Source: Gracilinema caldarium DSM 7334 (GTDB lineage: Bacteria; Spirochaetota; Spirochaetia; Treponematales; Breznakiellaceae). From it: a DNA stretch of 64,000 nucleotides. Position numbers and translations under genes: made by a program. Position 1 is the first letter of the stretch. The number at the start of each line of letters is the position of its first letter. The stretch spans positions 1,922,001 through 1,986,000 of the forward strand of contig NC_015732.1 of assembly GCF_000219725.1 (NCBI RefSeq), in the 5' to 3' direction. Of this stretch, positions 6,378-49,069 are shown piece after piece. The notes beneath the pieces were generated by a model. That model saw nothing but the letters and a program-made list of their open reading frames with translations, was not told where the DNA came from and did no database searches.

Positions 6378-6394
6378 ATGGTAGATGTTAGAAG
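6378..6394 (+). other. attI core (cassette insertion point)
   Basis: The core GTTAGAA starts at 6387 and the crossover is expected between G6387 and T6388. The downstream bases are identical to the start of the other two Mrr cassettes at 22072 and 24854, which fixes the junction. The left limit of attI cannot be set from the sequence alone. Confidence 0.75.
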
Positions 6395-6424
6395 GACCCT
6401 CTGGGCGATAAAAAAGGAAAACCA

Positions 6425-7342
6425 ATGATACCTGATTATCAATCTTGTATGTTACCATTATTAAAATTTGCTTCTGATGAAAAAGTACATACTCTTCCAG
6501 AAGCAGTAGTATATATTGCTTCGTTATTCAATTTGACGGAAGAAGAAAAGAAACAAATGTTACCGAGTGGAACGCAAACTATAATTTTTAATAGAGTTGG
6601 TTGGGCTAAGACTTACTTAAAAAAGGCTGGATTACTTGAAGATCCAAAACGAGCTACATTTAGAATAACAAAAAGAGGAATAGACCTTTTAAAAGAAAAT
6701 CCACCCGAAATAAATACCAAATACTTAGCTCGGTATGAAGAATTTGTTGCATTTCAAAACAAGAAGTCTGAAAAAAATAAAAATAAAAATGTTATTTCTG
6801 AAGAAACAGAAAGTAATATTACCCCAGAGGAATCCATTGAATTTGGTTTCCAAAAATTAAAGGATTCTGTTTCTGAAGATATAATAAATAAAATCAAAGA
6901 ATGCTCTTCTAATTTTTTTGAGAAACTTGTAGTTGAGTTATTGGTCAAAATGGGTTACGGCGGTACATTAAAAGAAGCTGGTCAAGTTCTAGGAAAATCA
7001 GGAGATGGTGGAATAGATGGAATCATAAAAGAAGACAAGCTTGGATTAGATGTAATATATATACAAGCAAAAAGATGGGAAAATGTAGTTGGAAGACCAG
7101 AAATACAAAAATTCGCTGGAGCCCTATTAGGTCAAAAGGCTAAAAAAGGTATTTTTATAACAACTTCATGGTTTACAAATGACGCTTTAGATTTTGTTAA
7201 AAATTTAGATAGTAAAATAGTATTAATTGACGGGGAAATGCTTACAGATTTAATGATTGAATATAATCTAGGTGTTTCAACATATAAAATTTATGAGTTA
7301 AAAAGAATTGATAATGATTATTTTGTAGAAGACGACTTCTAA
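6425..7342 (+). CDS. Mrr-type restriction endonuclease (cassette 1)
   Basis: A modification-dependent or site-specific DNA endonuclease is expected. The N-terminal half (residues 1-105) has the winged-helix Mrr N-terminal domain (PEAVVYIASLFNLTEEE; RITKRGIDLL). A charged linker (about 110-140) follows, then a PD-(D/E)xK catalytic domain with E171, D198 (DGGIDG), Q214 and K216 (IYIQAKRW). No methyltransferase is in the cassette, which fits a type IV Mrr enzyme. As first cassette it lies 35-40 bases from Pc. The TAA stop is supplied by the attC R'' core. The encoded protein is identical in cassettes 15 and 18. Confidence 0.9.
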   Translation: MIPDYQSCMLPLLKFASDEKVHTLPEAVVYIASLFNLTEEEKKQMLPSGTQTIIFNRVGWAKTYLKKAGLLEDPKRATFRITKRGIDLLKENPPEINTKYLARYEEFVAFQNKKSEKNKNKNVISEETESNITPEESIEFGFQKLKDSVSEDIINKIKECSSNFFEKLVVELLVKMGYGGTLKEAGQVLGKSGDGGIDGIIKEDKLGLDVIYIQAKRWENVVGRPEIQKFAGALLGQKAKKGIFITTSWFTNDALDFVKNLDSKIVLIDGEMLTDLMIEYNLGVSTYKIYELKRIDNDYFVEDDF

Positions 7343-7435
7343 CAATTGCTTTAAGCAGATTCGCCTATTGTCACGGTTCTTGCTTACACAAGAACGCGTG
7401 CCAATGACGGCTCACTGCTTAAGCAAATGTTAGGA
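7337..7435 (+). repeat. attC site 1
   Basis: 99-bp site of the TTTAAGCAG/CTGCTTAAGC type. R'' TTCTAAC contains the mrr stop codon; R' is ATG^TTAGGA with crossover after G7429. Confidence 0.93.
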
Positions 7436-7459
7436 TGACGCTTCGCGCAAGGAGATAAT

Positions 7460-7879
7460 ATGAAGGATGAAAAACCTGTATTAGCGGATGAAACTATTGA
7501 ACCAAGCGAAAAAGTATTAAAAGGTGTTCTAAAAAGTGTTTACCCAATTTACAAAGAACTGATTGATGAAATAACATCAGAAAATTACAAATTGAATGTC
7601 GAATGGAAATACTACAAAGATGGAAAATCCTGGCTATGTAAAGTTGTAAATAAAAAGCGAACAATTTTTTGGATTTCAGTATGGGAAGAATACTTTAAAG
7701 TAGCGTTTTATTTCACAGAAAACTTCGATGAACAAATTACAAATTCAGGAATAAGTGAAAGCATTATAAAACAATATATGGAAAACAAACCAATTGGAAA
7801 ATTGAAGCCACTGACAATTGATGTAAATAGTAATGAATTAATAAAAGAAATAATAAGATTAATTAATATAAGAAAGTAG
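7460..7879 (+). CDS. DUF3788-family protein (cassette 2)
   Basis: A 139-aa soluble protein. The central KDGKSWLCKVVNKKRTIFWI and the following EEYFKVAFYFTE resemble DUF3788, a small family of unknown function common in mobile cassettes. No catalytic motif is apparent. A mini-hairpin (CGC-TTC-GCG) and AAGGAG lie just upstream of the ATG. Family assignment is from memory of the motif pattern. Confidence 0.7.
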   Translation: MKDEKPVLADETIEPSEKVLKGVLKSVYPIYKELIDEITSENYKLNVEWKYYKDGKSWLCKVVNKKRTIFWISVWEEYFKVAFYFTENFDEQITNSGISESIIKQYMENKPIGKLKPLTIDVNSNELIKEIIRLINIRK

Positions 7880-7884
7880 AAGAA

Positions 7885-8011
7885 TCCTAACAAGCGCTTC
7901 AACCTGACAAATCCTTTGGCACGGTTATGCGCTGTCGAGGACTCGGCGCAAACCGCGCCAAGCCTTCGCTTCGCTCAGGCACGGATTTCCAGGTTAAGCG
8001 CGATGTTAGAT
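7885..8011 (+). repeat. attC site 2
   Basis: 127-bp site, R'' TCCTAAC, L'' GCTTCAACCTG, L' CAGGTTAAGC, then GCGATG^TTAGATG. R' spacer differs (GCGATG instead of AAATG). Confidence 0.92.
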
Positions 8012-8071
8012 GGACCCTTCGGGCTGAATACAAGAATTGTTTTGTCATAATTGATAGACATGGAGAATATT

Positions 8072-8392
8072 ATGATAGAGTTTCAATATTTTGAGGGGTG
8101 TCCAAATTCAATGCAATCATTAGCAATATTGCGAGAATTTATGACTATTGCAAAAATATCGGAAGATAAACTTGAAATAGTATTGATCACGAATGTAGAA
8201 ATGGCTCGAAAAAAGAATTTTCAAGGTTCTCCTACAATTCTCATTAATGGTGTAGATATTTACACAATGAAAAAGCCTACTGGTTATAGCTTTTCATGTA
8301 GAATATATGAAATAAATGGCGTTTCCACTGGTAAATTACCTTTATCTTTTATACAGGATCGATATAAAGAGCTTTTAATTGACAAAAAATAG
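8072..8392 (+). CDS. Small thioredoxin-like protein (cassette 3, gene 1)
   Basis: A 106-aa protein with a thioredoxin/glutaredoxin-like layout: MIEFQYFEGCPNS at the N-terminus and GSPTILINGVDIY (cis-Pro loop) near residue 55. Only one cysteine lies in the active-site position (GCPN), followed later by SCR. Relatives often accompany mercury or metal resistance genes; that role is inferred. The ATG at 8072 is chosen because GGAG lies six bases upstream; an upstream in-frame TTG at 8051 lacks a ribosome site. Confidence 0.65.
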   Translation: MIEFQYFEGCPNSMQSLAILREFMTIAKISEDKLEIVLITNVEMARKKNFQGSPTILINGVDIYTMKKPTGYSFSCRIYEINGVSTGKLPLSFIQDRYKELLIDKK

Positions 8393-8446
8393 AAAAAATT
8401 TCAAATAAATCCAAAATCCATTATAAATGGCAAGAATACAATTATA

Positions 8447-8923
8447 TTGACAAGAGAAAAAAATAAGTTCAAGAATTGTCCAGAATGCAATTTACCAGGT
8501 ATAATAGTAAAAAAGGAAACTGTCATATCATTACTATCAGAAGATGCAATAATACGAATCTCAGGAGATAGTTTTGCTCTTTGTATGAATCCGGATTGTG
8601 ATATTTCATATTACGGCCTGGATTCAAATATTAGTTTCAAATGCGATGAAATGAATGTACCATTATGGTTTAAAAGAAATGCACATCCGATTTATGCTTG
8701 TTACTGTAGCAAAGTAACGAAAGACGATGTTATAAATGCAATAAGAAAAGAAGGAGCTATGACAGTACAAGATATAAATAGAATTACTGGTTCAATGAAG
8801 AACTCTGATTGCTCTCATCATAATCCATTAGGAAAATGTTGTCATAAAATGATTCAAGATATAATTGATGAAGAAAAAATGTCATCTAACAACTGCTTCA
8901 ACCTGACTTGCCCTTTGTCATGA
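8447..8923 (+). CDS. CopZ-like zinc-ribbon / BFD-like [2Fe-2S] protein (cassette 3, gene 2)
   Basis: N-terminal zinc-ribbon (CPECNLPGIIVKKETVISLL) resembles the N-terminal domain of CopZ-type copper chaperones. A second CMNPDC pair follows, and the C-terminal half (residues about 85-140) is a BFD-like module, CYCSKVTKDDV ... DCSHHNPLGKCC. A metal or electron-carrier role with the neighbouring thioredoxin-like protein is inferred. The start is a TTG with no strong ribosome site. The last ten or so residues, after EEKMSS, are translated from the attC. Confidence 0.6.
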   Translation: MTREKNKFKNCPECNLPGIIVKKETVISLLSEDAIIRISGDSFALCMNPDCDISYYGLDSNISFKCDEMNVPLWFKRNAHPIYACYCSKVTKDDVINAIRKEGAMTVQDINRITGSMKNSDCSHHNPLGKCCHKMIQDIIDEEKMSSNNCFNLTCPLS

Positions 8924-9011
8924 AAATTGCATGGTCGCTACGCTCCATCATGCAATTTTCACGCCAATCCGCTACGCGGAACGGGCTGCGCAGGTTAAGC
9001 AAATGTTCTGC
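8884..9011 (+). repeat. attC site 3
   Basis: 128-bp site, R'' ATCTAAC, L'' GCTTCAACCTG, R' ATG^TTCTGCG. The preceding gene reads through R'' and stops inside the site at 8923. Confidence 0.92.
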
Positions 9012-9039
9012 GGACCTTGCAGGCGTTGAGAGAATTGAT

Positions 9040-9064
9040 AAAACCACAGTAAAAGTGTAGTTTT
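9040..9064 (+). terminator. Cassette-leader hairpin of toxin-antitoxin family 1
   Basis: AAAACCACA, a 7-base loop and TGTAGTTTTT form a stem (one mismatch here, perfect in the copies at 19.9, 27.7 and 39.2 kb) ending in a T run. It lies after the crossover and before the pair's own promoter. It could stop read-through from upstream cassettes; the stem is AT-rich, so strength is uncertain. Confidence 0.4.
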
Positions 9065-9126
9065 TAATATACATTCATCAATATAAAGCATAATAATATA
9101 AAGAATTGCTTATATTTCAATTTATA

Positions 9127-9155
9127 TTGATAAAATAATATTATTGTATTACTAA
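9127..9155 (+). promoter_or_regulatory. Promoter inside toxin-antitoxin cassette (family 1, copy A)
   Basis: TTGATA, 17 bases, TACTAA, followed by AGGAAG and the antitoxin ATG at 9177. Copies C to F have the better -35 TTGACA. The whole segment travels with the cassette. Confidence 0.5.
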
Positions 9156-9176
9156 AAGTATTACAGGAAGCGATAT

Positions 9177-9428
9177 ATGACTACAGTTCGGTTACCTACT
9201 GAAATTGAACAAAAATTAGAGGCTATTTCTCAAGAAAAACATAAATCTAAATCAGAAATAATTAAAGAAGCGCTTGAGAAATTATTTTATTCTGAAGAAT
9301 CACAAAAGAATTCATATGAACTTGGAATTGAGTTTTTTGGTAAATTTGGAAGTGGCAAAGGAAATCTTTCAGTTACTTACAAAGAAAAAATAAAGGACAA
9401 GATACATGCTAAACGACGTACTCATTGA
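9177..9428 (+). CDS. RHH (CopG-like) antitoxin, family 1 copy A (cassette 4)
   Basis: 83-aa antitoxin. Residues 1-37 form a ribbon-helix-helix DNA-binding domain (TTVRLPTEIEQKLEA ... SKSEIIKEALEKLF) that should repress its own promoter. The C-terminal part, with GIEFFGKFGSGKGNLS, is expected to wrap the toxin. It overlaps the toxin gene by 23 bases. Identical to copy B at 11895. Confidence 0.88.
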   Translation: MTTVRLPTEIEQKLEAISQEKHKSKSEIIKEALEKLFYSEESQKNSYELGIEFFGKFGSGKGNLSVTYKEKIKDKIHAKRRTH

Positions 9429-9825
9429 TGCTGATTCTTTAATTGCTTTATTTGATAAAGATGATCATTATCATGAAAAAGTAAAGGAATTCATAAAGAA
9501 TAAAGATTATAAATTTCATACTACGACAGCTGTAATAACTGAAGTCTTACATATGCTTGATTTTAGTGTAAAGGTTCAAATTAATTTTCTTGAATGGATA
9601 ATGCTTGGTGGTATATTGCTATATGAAATAAAACAAACTGATTTAGGAAAGATAATTGAATTAACTAAAAAATATAGTGACCGTTCCATGGATTTTGCAG
9701 ACGCAACACTCGTTCTAGCTGCAGAACAATCAAAAATAAGAAAAATAATTAGCATAGATTCAGATTTTGATATTTACCGATTACCTGGAAAAGTTAGAAT
9801 AGAAAATATATTTCGAGATATATAA
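9406..9825 (+). CDS. vapC: PIN-domain (VapC-type) toxin, family 1 copy A (cassette 4)
   Basis: 139-aa PIN ribonuclease; VapC toxins usually cleave tRNA or rRNA. The acidic metal-binding set is visible as D8, E46 (TEVLHM), D96/D99 (MDFADA) and D118/D120 (SIDSDFD). Compared with copies C-F, residues 10-11 are DS instead of GP, R92-S94 replaces P94, and K110 replaces G110. The usual family motif is DAGPLIALFD, so copies A and B may be altered in activity. Confidence 0.88.
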   Translation: MLNDVLIDADSLIALFDKDDHYHEKVKEFIKNKDYKFHTTTAVITEVLHMLDFSVKVQINFLEWIMLGGILLYEIKQTDLGKIIELTKKYSDRSMDFADATLVLAAEQSKIRKIISIDSDFDIYRLPGKVRIENIFRDI

Positions 9826-9828
9826 GAC

Positions 9829-9927
9829 GCAGAACAATTGCTTTAAGCAGATTCGCCTATTGTCACGGTTCTTGCTTACGCAAGAACGCGTGCCAATGAC
9901 GGCTCACTGCTTAAGCAAATGTTAGAA
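9829..9927 (+). repeat. attC site 4
   Basis: 99-bp site of the TTTAAGCAG type, R'' GCAGAAC, nearly identical to the attC of the Mrr cassettes. R' ATG^TTAGAAA. Confidence 0.93.
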
Positions 9928-10026
9928 AGACGCTCCGCGCGGGGGAGAGAAATTTAGCGAAATTTAGACATTCGGGAATGTCATTTCTAAGCGATTTTTT
10001 ATAGCAAAGAAACAGTTGGAGGAAGT

Positions 10027-10476
10027 ATGATGGCTTTTTTGGTCTCAATCGCTTGTATCGGCATGCTTGGAGGTACTGAATGGTGCATTAGAAAAGTGAT
10101 ACAAAAGCCCGCTCTGCTTAGGTGGATCGCACTATTACCGCTGGCAATCGTAAGGTCACTTTCATTTTTCGGTATTATCTATGCGGTATTCGGCTACATA
10201 TTTCCAATATCTCCTAACATAGTATTTGCCATTAATTGGTCAGCTTGTCCAGTAATAATGTTGTTCACCATATCAATGGTCGCCCCCAAAGGCGGCTACC
10301 AGATAGCAAATGTCTTAGGAGGAATGTGGATTCTGCTGTCAGTAATAGAAATATTTATGAAGTATGAAAGGTATGGAATTAGAATATTTCAAGTAATAGC
10401 GATGACCATATTTTTATGGTACTTATTCATCGAGAGAAGGGAAAAGGGAAAATCGAATCTAATCAAACAAATATGA
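10027..10476 (+). CDS. Membrane protein, about five helices (cassette 5, gene 1)
   Basis: A 149-aa protein, almost entirely hydrophobic, with helices around residues 1-17, 33-60, 65-85, 93-110 and 121-135, and a basic C-terminus. I recognise no family. GGAGG six bases before the ATG supports the start. First of three closely spaced genes in one cassette. Confidence 0.75.
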   Translation: MMAFLVSIACIGMLGGTEWCIRKVIQKPALLRWIALLPLAIVRSLSFFGIIYAVFGYIFPISPNIVFAINWSACPVIMLFTISMVAPKGGYQIANVLGGMWILLSVIEIFMKYERYGIRIFQVIAMTIFLWYLFIERREKGKSNLIKQI

Positions 10477-10492
10477 TATCAAGGAGGAAAAA

Positions 10493-10762
10493 ATGAAAAG
10501 TATTGCTGTAATTGGCTGGATCATAATAGGATTGCTGCAATTTAGCGCAATGGTCAGTGGCTTTGTGGATACCCTGGGTGGTTTTTTTGGCATCGCCGCC
10601 GCTTTATTACTTGGGCAAGTGCCCATACTTGGGACGATAATGGGGATTATTGGAGCGATGTCCTCATGGGGGTGGAGCTTAATTCAGTCTATTGGGCTCT
10701 TTATTGGAGCTCCTATAGGTATTATGGTGATAAATGCAATCGCATTCAAAGATAAAGATTAG
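10493..10762 (+). CDS. Small Gly-rich membrane protein (cassette 5, gene 2)
   Basis: An 89-aa protein with three hydrophobic segments, many glycines and a charged FKDKD end. AAGGAGG precedes the ATG; 16 bases separate it from gene 1. No family recognised. Confidence 0.7.
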   Translation: MKSIAVIGWIIIGLLQFSAMVSGFVDTLGGFFGIAAALLLGQVPILGTIMGIIGAMSSWGWSLIQSIGLFIGAPIGIMVINAIAFKDKD

Positions 10763-10786
10763 TCTTCTCGTGGGAAAGGCAAGGAT

Positions 10787-11374
10787 ATGAATACTATCGC
10801 AAAGGTAGCAGGGATCCTAATTCCATTGCTTTTACCACTTCTTAATGGAGGTTGGGAGGTATTTGGCACGGCTCGGCTAATAATTTGTGGAATTGCAATA
10901 TTTTCTGCAATTCAAGAGTATGAAGAACGCAGAGCTCTTGCGACTATCTACACTTTGGTCGCTATAATATTTAATCCGATCTTACCATTTTATTTAGGAA
11001 GAGAAATTTGGATAGTAGTGGACTTCTTGACATCATTCGCTTTTTCCCTGAGGCTTATTCCTAGCAAAGGCAAGAATGCCATTGTGTCGATATCCAATCG
11101 AAGCACTGGAAAGTGGCTTTCAGAGCATTTTCTGATCGATGTAAGTAACAGTTCTATAAGAATAATTGAGAATGGTAAAGGCAATTACATGATACCCAAA
11201 GACGCAATAATTTCTGAAGCTGAGAAACATTTATACATTGGCTATAAGGATCCAGTATCAAGAAGTGATGTCTCAATCAGAATAATAAAAAACAACACGC
11301 GAGAGGCAATTTTATTGATCGAACGTGAAGGGCAAATAGTTGAAGTTAGGGAAGAACTCCAAAAAATAGACTAA
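10787..11374 (+). CDS. DUF6804-like membrane protein with soluble C-terminus (cassette 5, gene 3)
   Basis: A 195-aa protein. Residues 1-90 have three or four helices, including FNPILPFYLGREIWIVVDF, which resembles the DUF6804 pattern. Residues 95-195 look like a small beta-rich cytoplasmic domain. Its start is 24 bases after gene 2, so the three genes probably make a membrane assembly of unknown function. Confidence 0.65.
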   Translation: MNTIAKVAGILIPLLLPLLNGGWEVFGTARLIICGIAIFSAIQEYEERRALATIYTLVAIIFNPILPFYLGREIWIVVDFLTSFAFSLRLIPSKGKNAIVSISNRSTGKWLSEHFLIDVSNSSIRIIENGKGNYMIPKDAIISEAEKHLYIGYKDPVSRSDVSIRIIKNNTREAILLIEREGQIVEVREELQKID

Positions 11375-11612
11375 AACATCGCAATTAATGAATAAAAAAA
11401 TATTGCTTTTAAAAAGCAGAAGTAACAGAGTATCATTAAGAAATAGAAATTAGATTTTATTAAGGGAAGGAGCTTTTTGGTTTTGTAGACAAGCGGGCTA
11501 ACAGTATATAAGAGAAACAAGAAATAATATAGGTAGATGAATAAGATATGAAAGCTTTAAAAAATGGTGAAAGGAAGAGAATAGATATATGTAAATCAAT
11601 TGAATAGAAGAT
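11375..11612. other. Non-coding tail of cassette 5
   Basis: AT-rich; no credible gene. Contains AAGGGAAGGAGC near 11463 but no open frame follows. Confidence 0.4.
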
Positions 11613-11729
11613 TTCTAACAATCGCTTCAAGCCGATTCGCTCAGCCTGTCACGGTTCTTGCGTGCTCGCTTCGCTCGTTTATTGCAAGAACCGCGCCAGG
11701 CTGGCTCACGGCTTAAGCGTATGTTCTGC
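11613..11729 (+). repeat. attC site 5
   Basis: 117-bp site, R'' TTCTAAC, L'' GCTTCAAGCCG, L' CGGCTTAAGC, then GTATG^TTCTGCG. Confidence 0.92.
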
Positions 11730-11894
11730 GGACCTTGCAGGCGTTGAGAGAATTGATAAAACCACAGTAAAAGTGTAGTTTTTAATATACATTCATCAAT
11801 ATAAAGCATAATAATATAAAGAATTGCTTATATTTCAATTTATATTGATAAAATAATATTATTGTATTACTAAAAGTATTACAGGAAGCGATAT

Positions 11895-12146
11895 ATGACT
11901 ACAGTTCGGTTACCTACTGAAATTGAACAAAAATTAGAGGCTATTTCTCAAGAAAAACATAAATCTAAATCAGAAATAATTAAAGAAGCGCTTGAGAAAT
12001 TATTTTATTCTGAAGAATCACAAAAGAATTCATATGAACTTGGAATTGAGTTTTTTGGTAAATTTGGAAGTGGCAAAGGAAATCTTTCAGTTACTTACAA
12101 AGAAAAAATAAAGGACAAGATACATGCTAAACGACGTACTCATTGA
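11895..12146 (+). CDS. RHH antitoxin, family 1 copy B (cassette 6)
   Basis: Identical in protein, leader and promoter to copy A 2.7 kb upstream, pointing to a recent duplication of the whole cassette. Overlaps the toxin start by 23 bases. Confidence 0.88.
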   Translation: MTTVRLPTEIEQKLEAISQEKHKSKSEIIKEALEKLFYSEESQKNSYELGIEFFGKFGSGKGNLSVTYKEKIKDKIHAKRRTH

Positions 12147-12543
12147 TGCTGATTCTTTAATTGCTTTATTTGATAAAGATGATCATTATCATGAAAAAGT
12201 AAAGGAATTCATAAAGAATAAAGATTATAAATTTCATACTACGACAGCTGTAATAACTGAAGTCTTACATATGCTTGATTTTAGTGTAAAGGTTCAAATT
12301 AATTTTCTTGAATGGATAATGCTTGGTGGTATATTGCTATATGAAATAAAACAAACTGATTTAGGAAAGATAATTGAATTAACTAAAAAATATAGTGACC
12401 GTTCCATGGATTTTGCAGACGCAACACTCGTTCTAGCTGCAGAACAATCAAAAATAAGAAAAATAATTAGCATAGATTCAGATTTTGATATTTACCGATT
12501 ACCTGGAAAAGTTAGAATAGAAAATATATTTCGAGATATATAA
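12124..12543 (+). CDS. vapC: PIN-domain toxin, family 1 copy B (cassette 6)
   Basis: Identical to copy A, including the DADSLIALFD variant at the active-site aspartate D8. Same acidic residues D8, E46, D96/D99 and D118/D120. Confidence 0.88.
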   Translation: MLNDVLIDADSLIALFDKDDHYHEKVKEFIKNKDYKFHTTTAVITEVLHMLDFSVKVQINFLEWIMLGGILLYEIKQTDLGKIIELTKKYSDRSMDFADATLVLAAEQSKIRKIISIDSDFDIYRLPGKVRIENIFRDI

Positions 12544-12546
12544 GAC

Positions 12547-12645
12547 GCAGAACAATTGCTTTAAGCAGATTCGCCTATTGTCACGGTTCTTGCTTACGCA
12601 AGAACGCGTGCCAATGACGGCTCACTGCTTAAGCAAATGTTAGAA
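12547..12645 (+). repeat. attC site 6
   Basis: 99-bp site identical to attC 4 up to the crossover (G12639); R' ATG^TTAGAAA. Confidence 0.93.
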
Positions 12646-12786
12646 AGGCTTTACAGAAACCGTTACATTGGTTGTGTTACAATTACTCGCTACTTTAAGC
12701 GGTTTCAAACGGCAAAAAGAGAAATAACAGGTAACCTTTACTACTTTATAAATACATTTATTTCAATAATAACAATCATTTCAAAA
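12646..12786. other. Left non-coding part of cassette 7
   Basis: No open reading frame. GAAACCG near 12656 and CGGTTTC near 12700 form a 7-bp inverted repeat. The rest is AT-rich, leading into the structured element at 12787. Confidence 0.4.
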
Positions 12787-12906: not shown

Positions 12907-12912
12907 AATGTA

Positions 12913-14561
12913 GGGCTTCCTGAAAAACAAACAACTCTTTACAAAAGAAGCAAATACAGAGATAATCTCAATAAGAAGTGCACGGAAGAAAGGGGTAAGG
13001 CCTTAAAAAGCGTGCACTTTACTATGGGGTAACGATGTATAAGGAAAAGGAACAGGTACCTGAGTTTGAAGACTTTTATGTACCCTTCGGAGGACATTTA
13101 CGAGAAGATAATCGATGGGTACGATTAGCCGCAATTATTCCATGGGAAGAGATAGAAGCTGAATATAAAAAATGTTTTTCAAAACGAATTGGAAGAACAG
13201 CCAAGACCGTACGGCTCGCCTTGGGATCATTATTGATAAAAGAGAAATTACAATTAACAGATGAAGAAACGGTAGAAACAATACGAGAGAACCATTACCT
13301 GCAATATTTTTTAGGATATGAATCTTACAAAGATGAAAAACCCTTTGATCCAAGCATGATGGTTCATTTTCGAAAACGGCTTGGACCTGATGCAATAGCA
13401 AAGATAAATGAGTTGATAGCGAAACGGTATCAAGAACAGGTAGAAGCAGAATCTGAAAAAAAACAGAACAAAAAAAACCAAAAGGATGACCATGATCATG
13501 GAAATCGAGGGCAACTCATTATAGATGCCACGTGCGTCCCCCAGGATATCCGGCATCCCCATGATGTCACTTTATTGGATGAAGCGCGAAGGAAAACAGA
13601 AAAGATAATTGATACGTTATATGAAGCGAGTGAGCTCACCATAAAACCACGAACCTATAGAAAACAGGCCCGTATCAAATATCTCAATTTTATACGAGGG
13701 CGACGAAGAACAAAAAAAGAAATACGCAGAGCGATTCGGACCCAACTCCAATACATACGACGTAATTTACGGACTATCAATGAATTACAAAACAAGGTTC
13801 CCAGTACAACGTTGAGTGCAAAACAGCGACGTGATCTTATCGTGATACATGAGGTTTACCGGCAACAGGTACAGATGTATAAGGGAAAGACCCATTCGAT
13901 ATCGGGAAAAATCGTCAGTATCAGTCAACCCCATGTACGACCAATAGCCCGAGGTAAAGCAAAAGCGGCCTTTGAATTCGGAGCAAAACTATCAGCATCG
14001 ATGACCGAACACGGGATGATTTTTATAGATCGATTACAATGGGAACCCTATAACGAACAAGAAGATTTGCCAACACAAATAGAAAAATATAAGAGGCGAT
14101 GTGGTCGATATCCGGAATCGGTGCATGCCGATAAAATATATCGGACACGAGCAAACCGAGCCTATTGTGAAGCTCGAGGAATACGATTGTCTGGACCACC
14201 CTTAGGCAGACCGATTAAAGAAACATTAGAGAATAAAAAGATAGTACGACAGCTACGAAAGATTCAAAGACTTGACGAAGCCATTCGACAAGCGATTGAA
14301 GGTGGCTTTGGATATATGAAACGAAAGTTTGGTCTTGGTACAATCTATGAAAAATTACGCGAAACTAGTGAAACAGCAATTATGGTATGTGTATTGCTGA
14401 CCAACTGTGAAAAAATCCTGAGGGATCTTTTTATGCGCTTTTTATTTTTACTTGGTTTTAAACCTCATAAATCATATTTGAAAGTTTTAGTATACTAAAT
14501 TAAACCCATTTTAACGTAAAAAAGTTTTGAAATATCATTTTTAGACATTTTCAGTAGGCCC
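12913..14561 (+). mobile_element. Insertion sequence, IS5-group, copy 1 (1649 bp)
   Basis: Ends are GGGCTTCCTGAAAA (left) and the complement of GGGCCTACTGAAAA (right), 12 of 14 matching. A 6-bp target duplication AATGTA flanks it at 12907-12912 and 14562-14567. Copy 2 at 54775 has the same limits, which fixes the boundaries. Confidence 0.92.
13035..14498 (+). CDS. DDE transposase of IS copy 1
   Basis: 487-aa transposase. The N-terminus (GSLLIKEKLQLTDEE, NHYLQYFLGY, PFDPSMMVHFRKRLG) is the DUF772-type domain of IS5-group enzymes. Catalytic acids fit D in LIIDATCVPQDIRHP, D in VHADKIYRTRANR and E in AIEGGFGYMKRKFGLG. A basic helical insertion lies between the first two. The frame is intact, so this copy may be active. 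The family label is from motif memory. Confidence 0.9.
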   Translation: MYKEKEQVPEFEDFYVPFGGHLREDNRWVRLAAIIPWEEIEAEYKKCFSKRIGRTAKTVRLALGSLLIKEKLQLTDEETVETIRENHYLQYFLGYESYKDEKPFDPSMMVHFRKRLGPDAIAKINELIAKRYQEQVEAESEKKQNKKNQKDDHDHGNRGQLIIDATCVPQDIRHPHDVTLLDEARRKTEKIIDTLYEASELTIKPRTYRKQARIKYLNFIRGRRRTKKEIRRAIRTQLQYIRRNLRTINELQNKVPSTTLSAKQRRDLIVIHEVYRQQVQMYKGKTHSISGKIVSISQPHVRPIARGKAKAAFEFGAKLSASMTEHGMIFIDRLQWEPYNEQEDLPTQIEKYKRRCGRYPESVHADKIYRTRANRAYCEARGIRLSGPPLGRPIKETLENKKIVRQLRKIQRLDEAIRQAIEGGFGYMKRKFGLGTIYEKLRETSETAIMVCVLLTNCEKILRDLFMRFLFLLGFKPHKSYLKVLVY

Positions 14562-15079: not shown

Positions 15080-15107
15080 GGACGCCTTCGGCGCAAAAAG
15101 GAAAAAT

Positions 15108-15943: not shown

Positions 15944-15969
15944 GGACGCTTCGCGCGGAGGAAAACATT

Positions 15970-16647: not shown

Positions 16648-16765
16648 GTAGAACAACTGCTTCAACCTGATAATTCCTTTTGTCACACTTTTTGCAGTCG
16701 CTACGCTCGGCAAAAAGTGCGCCAATCCCTTCGGGCCGGAATTACAGGTTAAGCAAATGTTATGC
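16648..16765 (+). repeat. attC site 9
   Basis: 118-bp site, R'' GTAGAAC, L'' GCTTCAACCTG, L' CAGGTTAAGC, R' ATG^TTATGCA. Confidence 0.92.
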
Positions 16766-17654: not shown

Positions 17655-17749
17655 TGACCCGCCTATCGGCGGGCGGAAGAGTTTCTTCTGTCATCAACCA
17701 GCATTCAAAATAGAACATACATTATATATGTATGTAATGGAGGAAGTTT

Positions 17750-22077: not shown

Positions 22078-22108
22078 GGACCCTCTGGGCGATAAAAAAG
22101 GAAAACCA

Positions 22109-24008: not shown

Positions 24009-24031
24009 AGACCCTTCGGGCGGAGGATAAA

Positions 24032-34458: not shown

Positions 34459-34500
34459 TGACGCCTACGGCGCTAAATTATATACAAATCCCAGAACTGA

Positions 34501-39131: not shown

Positions 39132-39296
39132 GGACCTTGAAGGCGCTGAGAGAATTGATAAAACTACAGTAAAAGTGTAGTTTTTAATATACATTCATCA
39201 ATATATAGCTCAATAATATAAAAAATTGCTTATATTTCAATTTATATTGACAAAATAATATTATTGTATTACTTTAAGTATTACAGGAAGCAATAT

Positions 39297-40797: not shown

Positions 40798-40898
40798 CAA
40801 CTGCTTCAACTTGACAACGCTATGTCACGATTTTTGCTGTCGCTACGCTTGGCAAAAATCGCGCCATGTACGCGTTGCAAGTTAAGCAAATGTTAGGA
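40792..40898 (+). repeat. attC site 32
   Basis: 107-bp site as attC 17; R' ATG^TTAGGAC. Confidence 0.92.
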
Positions 40899-40920
40899 CG
40901 ACGCTGCGCGCGAGGGAAAA

Positions 40921-41651: not shown

Positions 41652-41673
41652 AGACTTAAAATAGGGATATATA

Positions 41674-42681: not shown

Positions 42682-42683
42682 CT

Positions 42684-42803
42684 TTCTAACAATTGCTTTA
42701 ACCAGACATTTCCTTTGGCATGAAAATTGCTGTCGCTACGCTCGGCAATTTTCACGCCAAGCCCTAGGGGGGCACGGAAATGCAGGTTAAGCAAATGTTC
42801 TGC
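42684..42803 (+). repeat. attC site 34
   Basis: 120-bp site of the attC 10 type although the gene is unrelated, R'' TTCTAAC, R' ATG^TTCTGCG. Confidence 0.93.
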
Positions 42804-42968
42804 GGACCTTGAAGGCGCTGAGAGAATTGATAAAACCACAGTAAAAGTGTAGTTTTTAATATACATTCATCAATATAAAGCATAATAATATAAAGAATTG
42901 CTTATATTTCAATTTATATTGACAAAATAATATTATTGTATTACTTTAAGTATTACAGGAAGCAATAT

Positions 42969-43220
42969 ATGACTACAGTTCGGTTACCTACTGAAATTGA
43001 ACAAAAATTAGAGGCTATTTCTCAAGAAAAACATAAATCTAAATCAGAAATAATTAAAGAAGCGCTTGAGAAACTATTTTATTCTGAAGAATCACAAAAG
43101 AATTCATATGAACTTGGAATTGAGTTTTTTGGTAAATTTGGAAGTGGCGAAGGAAATCTTTCAGTTACTTACAAAGAAAAAATAAAGGACAAGATACATG
43201 CTAAACGACGTACTCATTGA
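42969..43220 (+). CDS. RHH antitoxin, family 1 copy F (cassette 35)
   Basis: Same protein as copies D and E. The leader is like copies A/B (AAAACCACA hairpin arm, ATAAAGCATAATAA) but the promoter and gene are like copy E. Confidence 0.88.
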   Translation: MTTVRLPTEIEQKLEAISQEKHKSKSEIIKEALEKLFYSEESQKNSYELGIEFFGKFGSGEGNLSVTYKEKIKDKIHAKRRTH

Positions 43221-43617
43221 TGCTGGTCCTTTAATTGCTTTATTTGATAAAGACGATCATTATCATGAAAAAGTAAAGGAATTCATAAAGAATAAAGATT
43301 ATAAATTTCATACTACGACATCTGTAATAACTGAAGTATTACATATGCTTGATTTTAATGTAAAGGTACAAATTAATTTTCTTGAATGGATAATGCTTGG
43401 TGGTATATTGCTATATGAAATAAAACAAACTGATTTAGGGAAGATAATTGAATTAACAAAAAAATATAGTGACCGTCCCATGGATTTTGCAGACGCAACA
43501 CTCGTTCTAGCTGCAGAACAATCAGGAATAAGAAAAATAATTAGCATAGATTCAGATTTTGATATTTACCGATTACCTGGAAAAGTTAGAATAGAAAATA
43601 TATTTCGAGATATATAA
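43198..43617 (+). CDS. vapC: PIN-domain toxin, family 1 copy F (cassette 35)
   Basis: 139 aa with DAGPLIALFD and all acidic residues. Differs from copies C-E at two positions: S42 for A42 and N54 for S54 (DFNVKV). Confidence 0.88.
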   Translation: MLNDVLIDAGPLIALFDKDDHYHEKVKEFIKNKDYKFHTTTSVITEVLHMLDFNVKVQINFLEWIMLGGILLYEIKQTDLGKIIELTKKYSDRPMDFADATLVLAAEQSGIRKIISIDSDFDIYRLPGKVRIENIFRDI

Positions 43618-43620
43618 GAC

Positions 43621-43719
43621 GCAGAACAATTGCTTTAAGCAGATTCGCCTATTGTCACGGTTCTTGCTTATGCAAGAACGCGTGCCAATGACGGCTCACT
43701 GCTTAAGCAAATGTTCGAT
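43621..43719 (+). repeat. attC site 35
   Basis: 99-bp TTTAAGCAG-type site, R'' GCAGAAC, R' ATG^TTCGATG. Confidence 0.93.
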
Positions 43720-43753
43720 GGACGCTGCGCGCGCTAATTTCAGGAGGAATTCA

Positions 43754-46231
43754 ATGAAGATAAACTTATCAGCCGTAAATATTCATAATGGAATATATGA
43801 ACAAACAAACCCGAAAGATATTTTCAAAGTTCTTCCAAAGAAATCGAAAAAATATTCTTATCTTCGAGATGTTCAAGCTGAAGTATTAGATAAGTGGTTT
43901 TCAAATTGCGGTAAAATGGAAACAGTAATAAAAATGAATACTGGAAGTGGAAAGACAATTGTTTCACTGCTAATTTTGCAAAGCTGTATAAACCAAAAAA
44001 TGGGACCTGCTGTATATATTGTGCCTGATAATTATCTATTGACTCAAGTTCGCTCCGAAGCAGAAGAACTAGGAATCCCGATAACTACAGAAACCGATGA
44101 TATTCAATTTCTCAGACAACGATCAATTTTACTTATAAATATTCATAAGCTATTCAATGGAAAATCTGTATTTGGTGTTGCTCTTGAAGGAAAGAAAATT
44201 GATATTGGTACTGTTCTAATTGACGATGCACATGCATGTATAGATAAAATTGAAGATCAATTTACTATTACTATTGAAAATACCAAGCCCCAATACCCTG
44301 ATTTAATAAAAATATTTGAACATGACCTTAAATCACAATCGGAGACATTGTTCTTTGATATTGAGCGTCAGACACCAGGGGCATTTCTTCAAGTGCCATT
44401 TTGGACAATTCAATCAAATTCTACTCAAATATTGCGTTGTCTTACTATCGGAAGGCAGGAAGATGACAATATAAAATGGAAAATTCCTTTGTTGAAAGAA
44501 TATTTGAAATACACAGACTGTGTCGTTTCTAGTGAGAAAATTGAATTTTCTATACGTGTTATCCCTACCGAAATAATTAGTTCATATGCAGAGTCAAGAA
44601 AAATAATAGTCAGCGCAACTTTACCTGACGATACAATTTTAAGTCGCTATTTAGATATTTCAGAAGAAGCAATATCTGGAACAATAACTCCATTGTCAGC
44701 TAGTGATTTGGGTGAAAGATTGATAATTGTTCCAGAAGAAATTAATCCACAGATAAAAAAAGATGATATTAAAGATATGCTAAAAGTTTATTCAGAAAAA
44801 TATAAAGTTGTAGTTATTGTTCCTTCGCATTATAGAGCAGAATATTGGAGCGATGTGGCACAATCAACACTGATAGCAGAAAACATTGAGGAAGGTCTTT
44901 CTAATTTTAGAACCAAGAATAATGGATTAATCGTATTGATCAATAAATATGATGGAATTGATTTACCTCAAGATGAATGTAGAATACTTGTAATTGATGA
45001 ACTTCCAGATGATAGATCAGAGATTGAAAAAGTTGATAATAATGCTTTACGAAACAACAATACAGCAATTCTTCGTAAGATACGTAAAATTGAACAAGGA
45101 ATGGGACGAGCTATAAGGTCGAATGATGATTATTCTATTGTGCTCTTACTTGGAAAGAGCCTTACCAACTACTTGTATACCAGAAATGGTATTGATTTTT
45201 TTACACCAGCTACAAAGCAACAGATGAAAATATCATCAACATTATTAGAACAAATCCACAAGGGAACTATTCCTGATATTATGGAAGCAATTGATTTAGT
45301 GTTAAGTAGAGATTCTGAGTGGATAACACTTGTAAAATCATCACTAATTGGCTTGAAATATGAACCTCAAATACCAAACCGTTATTCTTATTATCTGAGA
45401 GATGCATACAAGTTATCTTGGAAAGGGCATACGGATAAATCAATAAAATTATTGGAAGATAAGGCTAATGTAGAAGAAAATAACTTAATGAAAGGTTGGT
45501 TGAAGTACTATTTAGCACAGTTCCAGAATTTTAATGATCCTTCTTCAGCACAGTCTATTTTGAAATCAGCATTGGCTTTCAACTCACATCTATTACATCC
45601 ACTAGAAGGAGTAAAGTACCAAAGACTAACTCACACAGCTAATCAAGCAGAAAAATGCAGATCATATTTCATGAACTATTCAACAAATACTAATGGTCTT
45701 ATAATTAGACTAAATTCAATTCTAGACGACCTTCAGTTTAAACCTGAAACATCAAATAGCTTTGAGCAAGCAATATTGGAATTAGGTCGATTACTTGGTT
45801 TTGACTCTCAAAGACCTGAAAATGAGTTTGGAAGAGGTCCGGATAATTTATGGGCTTGCGGAAATTTGATATTCTTTGTAATTGAGTGCAAAAATGGATG
45901 TACAACAGCTAGTATTGATAAACACGACACAAATCAAATCAATGGTTCGATTAATTGGTTTAAGAATGAATATGATGATACTTGTACTCTTAAGCCCATT
46001 TTAATTCATCCTAGTTTGAAATTTGAATACGCAGCTTCACCAAGCAAAGACATTAGAATAATTAATGATGCTAAGCTATCAGAGCTAAAGAAAGCTGTTA
46101 ATGCTTTTGTGGTTTCTGCAGTTCAAAGTGGACAAATTGCAGATTTGGAAAAGTTAAGAAAATTAATACTTGATTATAAATTGAATCCGGAAGGAATAAT
46201 TGAAAAATATTCATATGAAATAAGTGTTTAA
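43754..46231 (+). CDS. SF2 helicase with C-terminal nuclease-like domain (cassette 36)
   Basis: 825 aa. Walker A NTGSGKT (about 62-68), motif II IDDAH (about 158), and motif VI EQGMGRAIRSNDDYSIVLLLG, whose QxxGRxIRS form resembles XPD/DinG helicases. The last 180 residues contain AILELGRLLGF, GPDNLWA and FFVIECKNG, spaced like a PD-(D/E)xK nuclease (D near 694, E-C-K near 711-713). ATP-driven DNA processing in phage defence is inferred. AGGAGG fixes the ATG at 43754. It is the largest gene in the array. Confidence 0.82.
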   Translation: MKINLSAVNIHNGIYEQTNPKDIFKVLPKKSKKYSYLRDVQAEVLDKWFSNCGKMETVIKMNTGSGKTIVSLLILQSCINQKMGPAVYIVPDNYLLTQVRSEAEELGIPITTETDDIQFLRQRSILLINIHKLFNGKSVFGVALEGKKIDIGTVLIDDAHACIDKIEDQFTITIENTKPQYPDLIKIFEHDLKSQSETLFFDIERQTPGAFLQVPFWTIQSNSTQILRCLTIGRQEDDNIKWKIPLLKEYLKYTDCVVSSEKIEFSIRVIPTEIISSYAESRKIIVSATLPDDTILSRYLDISEEAISGTITPLSASDLGERLIIVPEEINPQIKKDDIKDMLKVYSEKYKVVVIVPSHYRAEYWSDVAQSTLIAENIEEGLSNFRTKNNGLIVLINKYDGIDLPQDECRILVIDELPDDRSEIEKVDNNALRNNNTAILRKIRKIEQGMGRAIRSNDDYSIVLLLGKSLTNYLYTRNGIDFFTPATKQQMKISSTLLEQIHKGTIPDIMEAIDLVLSRDSEWITLVKSSLIGLKYEPQIPNRYSYYLRDAYKLSWKGHTDKSIKLLEDKANVEENNLMKGWLKYYLAQFQNFNDPSSAQSILKSALAFNSHLLHPLEGVKYQRLTHTANQAEKCRSYFMNYSTNTNGLIIRLNSILDDLQFKPETSNSFEQAILELGRLLGFDSQRPENEFGRGPDNLWACGNLIFFVIECKNGCTTASIDKHDTNQINGSINWFKNEYDDTCTLKPILIHPSLKFEYAASPSKDIRIINDAKLSELKKAVNAFVVSAVQSGQIADLEKLRKLILDYKLNPEGIIEKYSYEISV

Positions 46232-46238
46232 ATGGAGC

Positions 46239-46372
46239 ATCGAACAATCGCTTCAACCTGATAATCGCTGTTGTCACGGTTTGTGCTAATCGCTTCGCTC
46301 TTTTTCGCACAAACCGCGCCAAGTCTTCGCCTTCGGCTCAGACCGCGATTACAGGTTAAGCAAATGTTATGC
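46239..46372 (+). repeat. attC site 36
   Basis: 134-bp site, the longest, R'' ATCGAAC, L'' GCTTCAACCTG, R' ATG^TTATGCA. Confidence 0.92.
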
Positions 46373-46524
46373 AGATTTAAGAAAGTAAAATATTTATATA
46401 TCAGACATATGAATATTTTACCTTAATTGTATAGCTTAAAAATTTTACAGGTCTTTTTATAGTCTTTATATTGACCTATCTTTAAAATATTGTATAATGA
46501 ATTATAATACGGAGGGTTAATATA

Positions 46525-46806
46525 ATGATAAAGATAAATAATGATATACGTCCAATATCTTATATAAAATCTCATACAGCTGAAATGATAAGACAAATAG
46601 AAGAAAAGAAAAATCCAATAATAATCACACAAAATGGTGAGGCTAAAGCAGTTCTTCTTGATGTTGATACATTTCAAGGCTTAATCGATACAATAAATAT
46701 TTTAAAAATTATCTCTATTGGTGAAAATGATATTCATAAAAATAATGTTATAAAACATAATGATGTAAAAACAAAAATTGAGGAAATATTAACACAAAAT
46801 GAATAG
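46525..46806 (+). CDS. Phd/YefM-like antitoxin, family 2 copy 4 (cassette 37)
   Basis: Identical protein and leader to copy 1. Confidence 0.9.
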   Translation: MIKINNDIRPISYIKSHTAEMIRQIEEKKNPIIITQNGEAKAVLLDVDTFQGLIDTINILKIISIGENDIHKNNVIKHNDVKTKIEEILTQNE

Positions 46807-47134
46807 AGATATTGTATGGTCTCTCGATGCAAGCGATGAGTTTGTAGAAATAATTCTATATATTACAGAACACTCTGGAAATAATGTAGCACGTACGATT
46901 TATGAGAAAATTATAAAAAAAATAGAAAATCTTGTTGACTTCCCCGCAATTGGAAGGAAAGTTCCCGAATTAGAATCAGTTGGTAATACAGAATATTATG
47001 AAATAATAGAAAGTCCGTGGAGAATAATATATCGATATACAGAAAATGAAGTATATATTGTTTCAATAATTGATGGAAGAAGAAATATTGAAGAAATATT
47101 ATATAAAAAAATTATAAAGGGTAAAATATGGTAA
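46799..47134 (+). CDS. RelE/ParE-family toxin, family 2 copy 4 (cassette 37)
   Basis: Identical protein; silent differences in the codons of WRIIYRY distinguish it from the other copies. Confidence 0.88.
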   Translation: MNRDIVWSLDASDEFVEIILYITEHSGNNVARTIYEKIIKKIENLVDFPAIGRKVPELESVGNTEYYEIIESPWRIIYRYTENEVYIVSIIDGRRNIEEILYKKIIKGKIW

Positions 47135-47143
47135 TAAATACAT

Positions 47144-47261
47144 GCATAACAATTGCTTTAACCAGACATTTCCTTTGTCATGAAAATTGCTGTCGCTACG
47201 CTCGGCAATTTTCACGCCAAGCCCTTCGGGCACGGAAATGCAGGTTAAGCAAATGTTAGAT
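47144..47261 (+). repeat. attC site 37
   Basis: 118-bp site as attC 10; R' ATG^TTAGATG. Confidence 0.93.
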
Positions 47262-47344
47262 GGACGCCGCTTACGCGGCGCATAAGTAATAAAAATGGTT
47301 CATAAAGTGTTATATGTTATATATAGTTGAGGAGTCAATTTACT

Positions 47345-48121
47345 ATGAATAATCAAGAAATTAAACCATTAGGTACAGTAAAGTCTATTTGTTATTTTGG
47401 AATTTTAGGGACAGTATTCTATCTTAGTTATCATTATTTACGAATTTATTTATTAAAAAATGGATTCTCTGATATATCATCGTATCTTGTTAGCTTGGGA
47501 ACACCAGCTTTTCTTTTATTCTGTATATCAATCTTTTACTATAAAATAATTGAGAAAAGAGAATTGTCCATTCCTGAATTTTCTAAAAGGATGAATTTAC
47601 CTAAATTCACGTGGAAGGATATTACATGGGGTTTAGGTTTATTTGTATGTGGGTTTCTTGGATATGGTTTAGCAACATTTTTAACAAAATATGTGATTTC
47701 AATTTGTCATATTAATATCCCAACAAATATTGCGATTCTTGATATACCAGATCTTCAAATTACAAAAGATGTATTAAATCAAGCTGCCGGTGGTCAGATA
47801 GTAAACAAATGGTATCTAGTATTGCTCTTTGCTGTTGTTCTTTTCTTCAATATCTTTGGGGAAGAATTATTGTGGAGAGGAATAATATTACCAAAACAAA
47901 AAATTGTGTTCAAAAAAAATGCTTGGATCCTAAATGGTACCTTATGGGCTCTTTTTCACTTTTTTAAATGGTGGGACATTATTAATCTTTTGCCAACTTG
48001 TTTATTAATTGCATATGTATCACAGAAACGAAGTAATAATTGGTCTGGTATTATTGCCCACTCATTAATGAATATTTCTGGTTTTATCGTTATAACGCTA
48101 GCAGTTGCTGGAGTCTATTAA
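47345..48121 (+). CDS. CPBP-family intramembrane metalloprotease (cassette 38)
   Basis: 258 aa, seven or eight helices. Conserved motifs EELLWRG (EExxxR), WALFHFFKWW (FxxxH-like) and HSLMNISG (HxxxN) are all present in order. Roles in this family include bacteriocin immunity and regulated proteolysis; substrate unknown. The ATG at 47345 is preferred because MNNQEIKP is followed by the first helix, with GAGGAG about ten bases upstream. Confidence 0.85.
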   Translation: MNNQEIKPLGTVKSICYFGILGTVFYLSYHYLRIYLLKNGFSDISSYLVSLGTPAFLLFCISIFYYKIIEKRELSIPEFSKRMNLPKFTWKDITWGLGLFVCGFLGYGLATFLTKYVISICHINIPTNIAILDIPDLQITKDVLNQAAGGQIVNKWYLVLLFAVVLFFNIFGEELLWRGIILPKQKIVFKKNAWILNGTLWALFHFFKWWDIINLLPTCLLIAYVSQKRSNNWSGIIAHSLMNISGFIVITLAVAGVY

Positions 48122-48127
48122 AAAAGC

Positions 48128-48233
48128 ATCTAACAACTGCTTCAACCTGACTCGGCTATGTCACGATTTGTGCTTTCGTTTCGCGGCACAAACCGCGCCA
48201 ATGTACGCAATGCAGGTTATCCAAATGTTCTGC
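48128..48233 (+). repeat. attC site 38
   Basis: 106-bp site, R'' ATCTAAC, L'' GCTTCAACCTG but L' CAGGTTATCC, so the outer arm is mispaired; R' ATG^TTCTGCG. Confidence 0.9.
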
Positions 48234-48253
48234 GGCTAGATATTCATATCGAA

Positions 48254-49069
48254 ATGAGCATAGTCAACGAAAGAGACTTTGTGGTGATGCCTAAGTTACG
48301 CAGAATCATTCTTTTTGTTGTCAGCGGGCTTCTTATCGCTGGCATTTTGCTGGTTGCCTTCAACGCAGAACTACGTGGCGGGCTATTACTCATTTTCGCC
48401 CCTCAATATTTCCGCGAAGCTGTATTCCTGCGGTTTGCCGATAACACGGGACAGGAAGTTTATCTGCTTGGCACGATTCATAGCAACCACCTAACTACAA
48501 AAGACTATTCTCTCTTACACCTTCAAGCAGTTCTGGAACATCTGGAGCCTGATCTTCTGTTGGTGGAGAGTCGGCCCAAAGAACTGGCGCGGGATAATTG
48601 GGGAGATGGGCCAATTGAAATGCCCTTTGCCAGTCTGACGGCTCGGGCAAAAGGGATAGAAGTACAGGGAATGGATTGGTGGGTGATGACCGATAACCAC
48701 CAAATCAACAGTGATGAGCGCGAGAATCGAATGTTTCAAAACATTCTCACCAGCCTACCAGGTTACCACACGGTTTTAATCTTGACGGGGTTCTCACACG
48801 TGGAAGGTTTTCAACGCCGTTTTCTGGCGAGCGGCTATCGTCAGATTGCCTTTTCGTCAGCCGAAAAGCAAGTACTGTTTGACACATCGGATCAGACCTT
48901 TATCTTTCCCTATGGTATGACTCACTACATTGAAAAGCGTATAGAGATTGACCAGTTAATACTCCAAAGTGAGACGGATAGCTTTTGGAGGGATAGAATA
49001 GCCAATGTCATAGCCTTCCGACAAGAATTCCTAAAAACAATCGCTATGGTAGGTGAACGACAGCCGTAA
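48254..49069 (+). CDS. TraB/GumN-like membrane-anchored protein (cassette 39, foreign composition)
   Basis: 271 aa with an N-terminal helix (about residues 15-35). EVYLLGTIHSNH and LEPDLLLVESRP follow the TraB/PrgY/GumN plan (GT-H and a later E), a fold thought to be a metal hydrolase. GC and codon use (CGC, CTG, GCC) are clearly higher than neighbouring cassettes. The start could also be the ATG at 48287. The leader lacks the usual mini-hairpin and its attC is of another type. Confidence 0.65.
   Translation: MSIVNERDFVVMPKLRRIILFVVSGLLIAGILLVAFNAELRGGLLLIFAPQYFREAVFLRFADNTGQEVYLLGTIHSNHLTTKDYSLLHLQAVLEHLEPDLLLVESRPKELARDNWGDGPIEMPFASLTARAKGIEVQGMDWWVMTDNHQINSDERENRMFQNILTSLPGYHTVLILTGFSHVEGFQRRFLASGYRQIAFSSAEKQVLFDTSDQTFIFPYGMTHYIEKRIEIDQLILQSETDSFWRDRIANVIAFRQEFLKTIAMVGERQP

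Follow-up and report, generated by a model that had tools for sequence, protein, structure and literature searches.

The stretch of DNA analysed here, referred to as the window, comprises 64,000 nucleotides of Gracilinema caldarium DSM 7334 (contig NC_015732.1, positions 1,922,001 to 1,986,000) and is a chromosomal integron, formed by an IntI integron integrase gene and a plus-strand cassette array. We describe a short hairpin at the 5′ end of most of its cassettes; sequence comparison makes it a probable component of the recombination site, for which we found no earlier description. The integrase was recognized by profile search (TIGR02249, 381 bits against a cut-off of 265, residues 104-423), and no Rfam family matched the window at or above its curated threshold. 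The 43 cassette starts, from 6388 to 58097, were picked by hand; the 44th candidate, at 48228, was excluded because it probably marks the junction of an insertion element. Requiring a perfect, GC-containing stem and a loop of 3-6 bases, we found a stem that begins exactly at base 10 after the crossover in 34 of the 43 starts. The hairpin forms named in a preceding sequence-only reading of this DNA are present, and its statement that most cassettes carry one is borne out. The range that it gave, 6388-48300, does contain hairpins but ends too early, since intact copies stand at 49178, 50516 and 51334. The features are as follows.

4802 to 6088, minus strand: IntI integron integrase of 428 amino acids, divergent from the array (TIGR02249, PF00589, PF13495)
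6388 to 58097, plus strand: cassette array with 43 cassette starts, the attI crossover at 6388 and then attC crossovers
6397 to 6405, minus strand: hairpin CCC-TCT-GGG (plus-strand letters), cassette start 6388
7439 to 7447, minus strand: hairpin CGC-TTC-GCG, bottom-strand loop GAA, cassette start 7430 (DNA fold)
8015 to 8023, minus strand: hairpin CCC-TTC-GGG, cassette start 8006
9015 to 9023, minus strand: hairpin CCT-TGC-AGG, cassette start 9006; same family at 11733, 19878 and 27713, with a TGA loop at 39135 and 42807
9931 to 9939, minus strand: hairpin CGC-TCC-GCG, cassette start 9922; also 37618
15083 to 15093, minus strand: hairpin CGCC-TTC-GGCG, cassette start 15074; also 20793, 35467 and 51334 (DNA fold of the 35467 copy)
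15947 to 15955, minus strand: hairpin CGC-TTC-GCG, cassette start 15938; also 19044, 25905 and 33628
17658 to 17673, minus strand: hairpin CCCGCC-TATC-GGCGGG, bottom-strand loop GATA, cassette start 17649
22081 to 22089, minus strand: hairpin CCC-TCT-GGG, cassette start 22072; also 24863 (DNA fold of the 24863 copy)
24012 to 24020, minus strand: hairpin CCC-TTC-GGG, cassette start 24003; also 26848, 31945, 32860, 36508, 40051 and 49178
34462 to 34472, minus strand: hairpin CGCC-TAC-GGCG, cassette start 34453
40902 to 40910, minus strand: hairpin CGC-TGC-GCG, cassette start 40893; also 43723
47265 to 47280, minus strand: hairpin CGCCGC-TTAC-GCGGCG, bottom-strand loop GTAA, cassette start 47256 (DNA fold)
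50516 to 50529, minus strand: hairpin CGCGC-TTTC-GCGCG, bottom-strand loop GAAA, cassette start 50507 (DNA fold)
54599 to 54609, minus strand: decayed hairpin with an outer C-A pair, distal cassette start 54590

A comparative set was built from integrons of related bacteria. IntI was present in 43 of 197 relatives (own genome counted); across the phylum it was found in 57 of 392 genomes, and the two sets overlap in part. The attC sites were located on the DNA beside IntI with a home-made script that scores R″/L″-L′/R′ pairing; an initial version that demanded a paired spacer recovered few sites from other phyla, and a free-spacer version took its place. At a threshold of 11, the latter returned 35 window sites with no extras, missed nine of the 44 known ones and found none in one shuffle. 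Each site was taken to read away from IntI, so that orientation was assigned independently of the hairpin. A score of at least 10 together with an L′ motif retained 174 of 237 sites from relatives, which made 217 with the 43 of the window; a further 35 of 46 completed the final set of 252 sites from 24 Treponematales genomes, the window's 43 included. Clustering on bases 31-100, downstream of the hairpin, gave 166 families, of which the first member was scored, so that copies were not recounted.

A perfect stem from base 10 was found in 117 of the 166 families. Shuffled starts yielded a mean of 3.6 families (maximum 10, 200 shuffles), and swapping the tails between cassettes yielded a mean of 39.3 (maximum 51, 200 swaps), a high value because the common hairpins re-pair with one another. 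The same test applied further downstream was passed by a single family of the 166. The position is sharply defined: the stem begins at base 10 in 117 families, at base 9 in seven and at base 8 in one, while the counts at positions 11-14 are mostly inner parts of base-10 stems. An earlier clustering on the first 45 bases, with starts 8-13 counted, had given 60 of 98 families, where shuffling gave 9.6 on average (maximum 15, 30 shuffles). Taking all sites together, the hairpin occurs in 190 of 252. The outer pairs vary among Watson-Crick combinations: in the 107 families with a loop of 3-4 bases, the outermost pair is CG in 97, TA in 9 and AT in 1, and the second pair is GC in 68, CG in 20, TA in 11 and AT in 8. 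These data strongly support the covariation across non-homologous genes that the sequence-only reading had claimed, and the excess of pairing over chance in a larger related set, whose absence it had named beforehand as refuting it, is thus observed.

Three hairpins (CGC-TTC-GCG, CGCC-TTC-GGCG and CCC-TTC-GGG) make up 44 of the 107 families, as might be expected if cassettes shared by descent a common 5′ end, made or converted, with no present function. However, the 63 distinct hairpins are built from 29 different stems and 36 different loops and have kept their pairing, and stem length co-varies with the type of loop (see below). Compensation already strains this explanation, which we regard as very unlikely.

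In control integrons (other phyla, and IMG/VR contigs of unknown host), a base-10 stem was present in two of 89 distinct attC junctions, with no peak, and in spirochaetes outside Treponematales 4 of 47 distinct junctions passed the stem test. Of these four, the ones in G211 and G486 show the full GA...C pattern described below; the integrase of G486 falls inside the oral-type clade of Treponema integrases. The dinucleotide GA at bases 8-9 is retained in 42 of the 59 families that lack a hairpin with a 3-4-base loop. In one array, L307 (G507), the hairpin was seen in 15 of the 16 families represented by that genome, and one copy there, CGCCGC-GTA-GCGGCG, carries its GNA loop on the top strand.

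The composition of the loops reveals a strong asymmetry between the two strands. The inner pair is C-G in 104 of the 107 families, and the bottom strand reads GNA or GNNA in 85, corresponding to TNC or TNNC in plus-strand letters; the top strand has such a loop in 1, and neither strand has one in 21. TNC was found in 66 of 83 triloops against 44 of 748 other hairpins of the same 1.3 Mb, and TNNC in 19 of 24 tetraloops against 52 of 724; the background hairpins were scanned on both strands, which makes GNA equal to TNC by construction, and only the rates are informative. Terminator-like hairpins of the same genomes (102 found) have mixed loops. The bottom-strand GNA or GNNA loop is also linked to stem length, since it occurs in 71 of 75 stems of 3-4 bp versus 14 of 32 stems of at least 5 bp (Fisher 1.5e-8, families). 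Counted over the distinct hairpins of all sites, the figures are 19 of 25 short versus 14 of 38 long stems (p=0.004). A short stem combined with a stable loop is the pattern expected if selection acts on how stable the bottom-strand DNA fold is as a whole. Mini-hairpins with a GNA or GNNA loop and two or more G-C pairs are reported to be extraordinarily stable in DNA, with a melting temperature of 78°C for GCGAAGC (PMC4686876). The sequence rule of these mini-hairpins applies to the bottom strand, with its 85 loops of 107. ViennaRNA assigns flat loop energies to triloops, so that only tetraloops can be ranked, and most of them favour the bottom strand in the RNA and DNA tables alike.

We then considered the hairpin as an RNA element. 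A hairpin in the top-strand transcript, lying 5′ of the ribosome site, might insulate or protect the cassette mRNA from the attC structure upstream. A ribosome-site-like motif (AGGA, GGAG, GAGG or AAGG) does follow directly, within 22 nt, in 19 of the 29 distinct hairpins of the window when imperfect stems are counted. Translation downstream of attC stems is reported to be impeded by them (PMC8876359), and plain energy tables make the hairpin as stable in RNA as it is in DNA. The first count, made on 98 families, leaned to nearby genes, with 29 of 47, 16 of 29 and 10 of 21 in order of increasing distance. This dependence was not seen over the 166 families: the hairpin is present in 56 of 81, 23 of 40 and 25 of 38 families when the first plausible start codon lies at up to 60, at 61-150 or beyond (p=0.45). 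The commonest 3-bp stems reach only −0.4 to −1.2 kcal/mol as RNA, CGC-TTC-GCG is by inspection unable to form the C(UUCG)G tetraloop, and GNA or GNNA loops on the top strand amount to just the one case in 107. A promoter-like motif within 150 nt downstream, for instance at 50507, was noted in 15 of the 107 families, a count given with no chance level computed. Altogether, a role as RNA leader appears unlikely. Of the three guesses of the sequence-only reading, the signal in single-stranded DNA is favoured, while the mRNA leader and the translation element have become less likely. Intrinsic termination at each cassette boundary is more improbable still, and we give it next to no credence: a T run follows a few hairpins, as in G160 and G175, but TTTT within 9 nt after the stem occurs in 5 of the 107 families.

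The location of the hairpin relative to the attC site was defined from the pairing of each cassette start with its own R″ box. This R pairing is complete in 36 of the 38 window cassettes examined, where bases 3-7 (after the leading TT) are complementary to the box. The R pairing covers bases 1-7 and ends there, with base 8 paired at a frequency of 0.08 (all 38 cassettes). In the relatives the drop is similar, from 0.70 at base 7 to 0.09 at base 8 (98 of 130 cassettes with runs of at least 4), whereas in control integrons base 8 is paired at 0.67 (30 of 53 with runs of at least 3) and pairing often extends further out. G8 is conserved in 100 of the 107 families and is followed by A9, the stem and a C. 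Since pairing ends before base 8 and GA precedes the stem, two bases separate the hairpin from the foot of the R stem. Read 5′ to 3′, the bottom strand thus presents G, the hairpin with its C(GNA)G or C(GNNA)G loop, TC, the 8-base R′ half-box and the attC arm. Bottom-strand DNA folds were predicted for six whole sites, with z values of −4.5 to −11.4, and in five of them the named mini-hairpin forms separately from the attC stem.

The fixed two-base spacing, the bottom-strand bias of the loop, the combination of short stems with stable loops and the independence from the start codon favour a DNA recombination signal. We consider it reasonably probable that the element acts as bottom-strand DNA in recombination, a grading that applies to this statement and not to any finer step. 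In the excised cassette, the first seven bases and the preceding G would, by complementarity, pair with the cassette's own R″ box as the R stem; two unpaired bases and then the mini-hairpin would follow. On a bottom strand exposed at the fork or extruded by supercoiling, the mini-hairpin would close by itself and, once closed, may withstand single-strand-binding protein (SSB). It could then aid the recombinogenic attC strand in folding, in staying folded or in being distinguished from the top strand, whose complementary TNC loops would lack GNA-type stability.

Two sets of published observations lead to a more specific proposal. In phage N4, a 3′G:C5′ closing pair and a loop with a 5′ G and a 3′ A are required for supercoil-driven extrusion and for stability, and SSB melts the complementary hairpin while sparing the C-G closed one (PMC4496689). 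The attC site can fold from single strands or by extrusion, and SSB is reported to destabilize the folded site unless integrase captures it (PMC8946536). Taken together, they suggest an SSB-resistant mini-hairpin at the foot of attC on the recombinogenic strand. By this analogy, which we put forward tentatively as a minority possibility, SSB would melt the complementary hairpin but leave the C(GNA)G hairpin of the bottom strand intact, and the latter would serve two integrase lineages as a nucleus that extrudes or holds open the recombinogenic attC strand and marks it from the top strand.

The hairpin could also act in DNA outside attC folding, either as a guard of the 3′ end of the cleaved bottom strand against exonuclease or as a start of second-strand synthesis in replicative resolution. 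Given the known cleavage point, only 9 nt separate it from the 3′ end of the bottom strand, a position that counts in favour of such a role. A 3′ GNA mini-hairpin is reported to confer exonuclease resistance (PMC4686876), and integron insertion to be resolved by replication (PMC8946536). Control integrons, however, manage without the hairpin, and we judge this role distinctly improbable.

The hairpin is found under two integrase lineages. In a tree from a quick search, the window type stands apart from the oral-Treponema type, each within a larger group of its own, these groups having Shimodaira-Hasegawa-like approximate likelihood-ratio (SH-aLRT) supports of 98 and 99. Among the arrays found, those of the window type run divergently from IntI and those of the oral type in the same direction. 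Arrays of the non-spirochaete integrases closest to the oral type (L086, L090 and L135) yielded one attC candidate, which lacks the hairpin. The oral-type Treponema IntI (L019-L030) has an N-terminal extension of about 100 amino acids with a P.rrW....W.iP motif, unlike that of the window type. A likeness of this N-terminus to the HARP domain was not supported by Pfam in five proteins, four of them oral-type, with one sub-threshold match to DUF5710; in those four, no Pfam family reached its cut-off over the extension.

Several observations weigh against a bottom-strand DNA hairpin that acts in recombination. Within the order, 49 of the 166 families have no base-10 stem, which shows that the hairpin is not required, and 22 of the 107 loops are other than bottom-strand GNA or GNNA. 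Counted as distinct hairpins among the families, the bottom-strand form falls to 26 of 47, with one top-strand form, and the most frequent hairpins may be shared by descent. The calculated DNA form is not the more stable one, the mean energy being −3.48 for bottom-strand DNA versus −4.87 for top-strand RNA; individual hairpins differ (CGC-TTC-GCG, −1.0 as DNA versus −0.4 as RNA; CCC-TTC-GGG, −0.2 versus −1.2 kcal/mol). The DNA table gives GNA triloops no bonus, so the energies by themselves cannot settle the matter, and the case for stability depends on the papers cited. Among imperfect pairs neither strand is preferred (G-T 6, A-C 5, other 4). The flank formed by A9 and the C after the stem, common to 94 of the 107 families, has no explanation in this scheme. 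In the sixth predicted fold, that of 25905, another 3-bp register is formed instead of the named hairpin, and the centroid leaves it open. Finally, occurrence under two lineages makes a contact peculiar to one integrase unlikely; the reader of the hairpin is more likely a host factor, SSB or the DNA fold itself.

Nine of the window's starts lack the perfect stem (12640, 28620, 41646, 16760, 23114, 31047, 46367, 54590 and 58097). The main hairpin-less group, at 16760, 23114, 31047 and 46367, consists of four copies of one cassette family with an identical start and two small open reading frames (ORFs) of 93 and 111 amino acids. At the two most distal starts, 54590 and 58097, the outer pairs of the hairpin are broken, which fits decay where use is lowest, for two cases only. 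The weakest stem, CCT-TGC-AGG or CCT-TGA-AGG, belongs to a six-copy family (9006, 11724, 19869, 27704, 39126 and 42798) with a long AT-rich leader and an ORF of 139 amino acids, mostly preceded by one of 83-94. In the organism's own genome, the five exact copies of GACGCTTCGCGC all lie inside the array, as do seven of the ten of GACCCTTCGGGC; two of the remaining three fall within ORFs, and the third was seen as sequence only. An ORF of 487 amino acids at 13035-14498 looks transposase-like by eye, and a second stretch with the same sequence start is found at about 55036; both interrupt or follow cassettes.

Two further cassette groups were noted elsewhere. An array outside the order, L291 (G519), has 11 cassettes that start with TTATGTAGGCACTTTTGCG, many of them about 399 bp apart in tandem. 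A widespread Treponema family (L063 (G122) at 5586, 9593 and 12546; L231, L256, L257 and L312) has a longer leader, and its R′ region, TTAGGTTG or TTAGATTG, appears pairable with a downstream GGAACCGACCTA or GGAACCAATCGA, the two seeming, by eye, to co-vary.

The folding of attC is one of the steps that control cassette recombination, and the determinants described in the available literature lie inside the attC stem. If our interpretation is true, a selected hairpin just outside this stem would be a further determinant, common to a bacterial order, and would open strand choice and SSB resistance to direct testing. The hairpin also offers a sequence signature for spirochaete cassettes and for their exact 5′ ends. 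The GNA and GNNA loops, the near-invariant C-G closing pair, the A...C flank and the spread across Treponematales under two integrase lineages are additions to the sequence-only reading. The available text of the literature searched, including PMC3607928, PMC2727003, PMC8876359, PMC4909258, PMC6557892 and PMC8946536, holds no description of the hairpin; subscription papers, among them the original T. denticola integron reports, were outside the scope of this search.

The hairpin can be compared with four known systems. The stem of N4 hairpin promoters is about 5-7 bp long. These template-strand hairpins of the early promoters of phage N4, for which a 7-bp stem is described, have the same C-G closed three-base loop with a 5′ G and a 3′ A on one strand, and a stem of conserved and variable bases (PMC4496689). 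They are, however, promoters of the virion RNA polymerase, whereas the cassette stems are tied to attC and mostly (75 of 107) of 3-4 bp, which is unlike an N4-type promoter; a polymerase gene was not searched for. The mini-hairpins d(GCGAAGC) and d(GCGAAAGC) share the GNA or GNNA loop, at least two G-C pairs and the C-G closing pair, but are short synthetic fragments (PMC4686876), while here the element is genomic, repeated and variable in its stems. The chromosomal integrons of Treponema (Wu et al. 2013, PMC3607928) have the same kind of cassette arrays in related species, and the available text of that study does not mention a hairpin at the 5′ end. The known features of attC are the unpaired central spacer, the extrahelical bases and the variable terminal structure (PMC2727003); unlike them, the hairpin lies outside R′-R″. 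It abuts the R stem of attC and would, like the folded site, be a bottom-strand DNA structure recognized in recombination.

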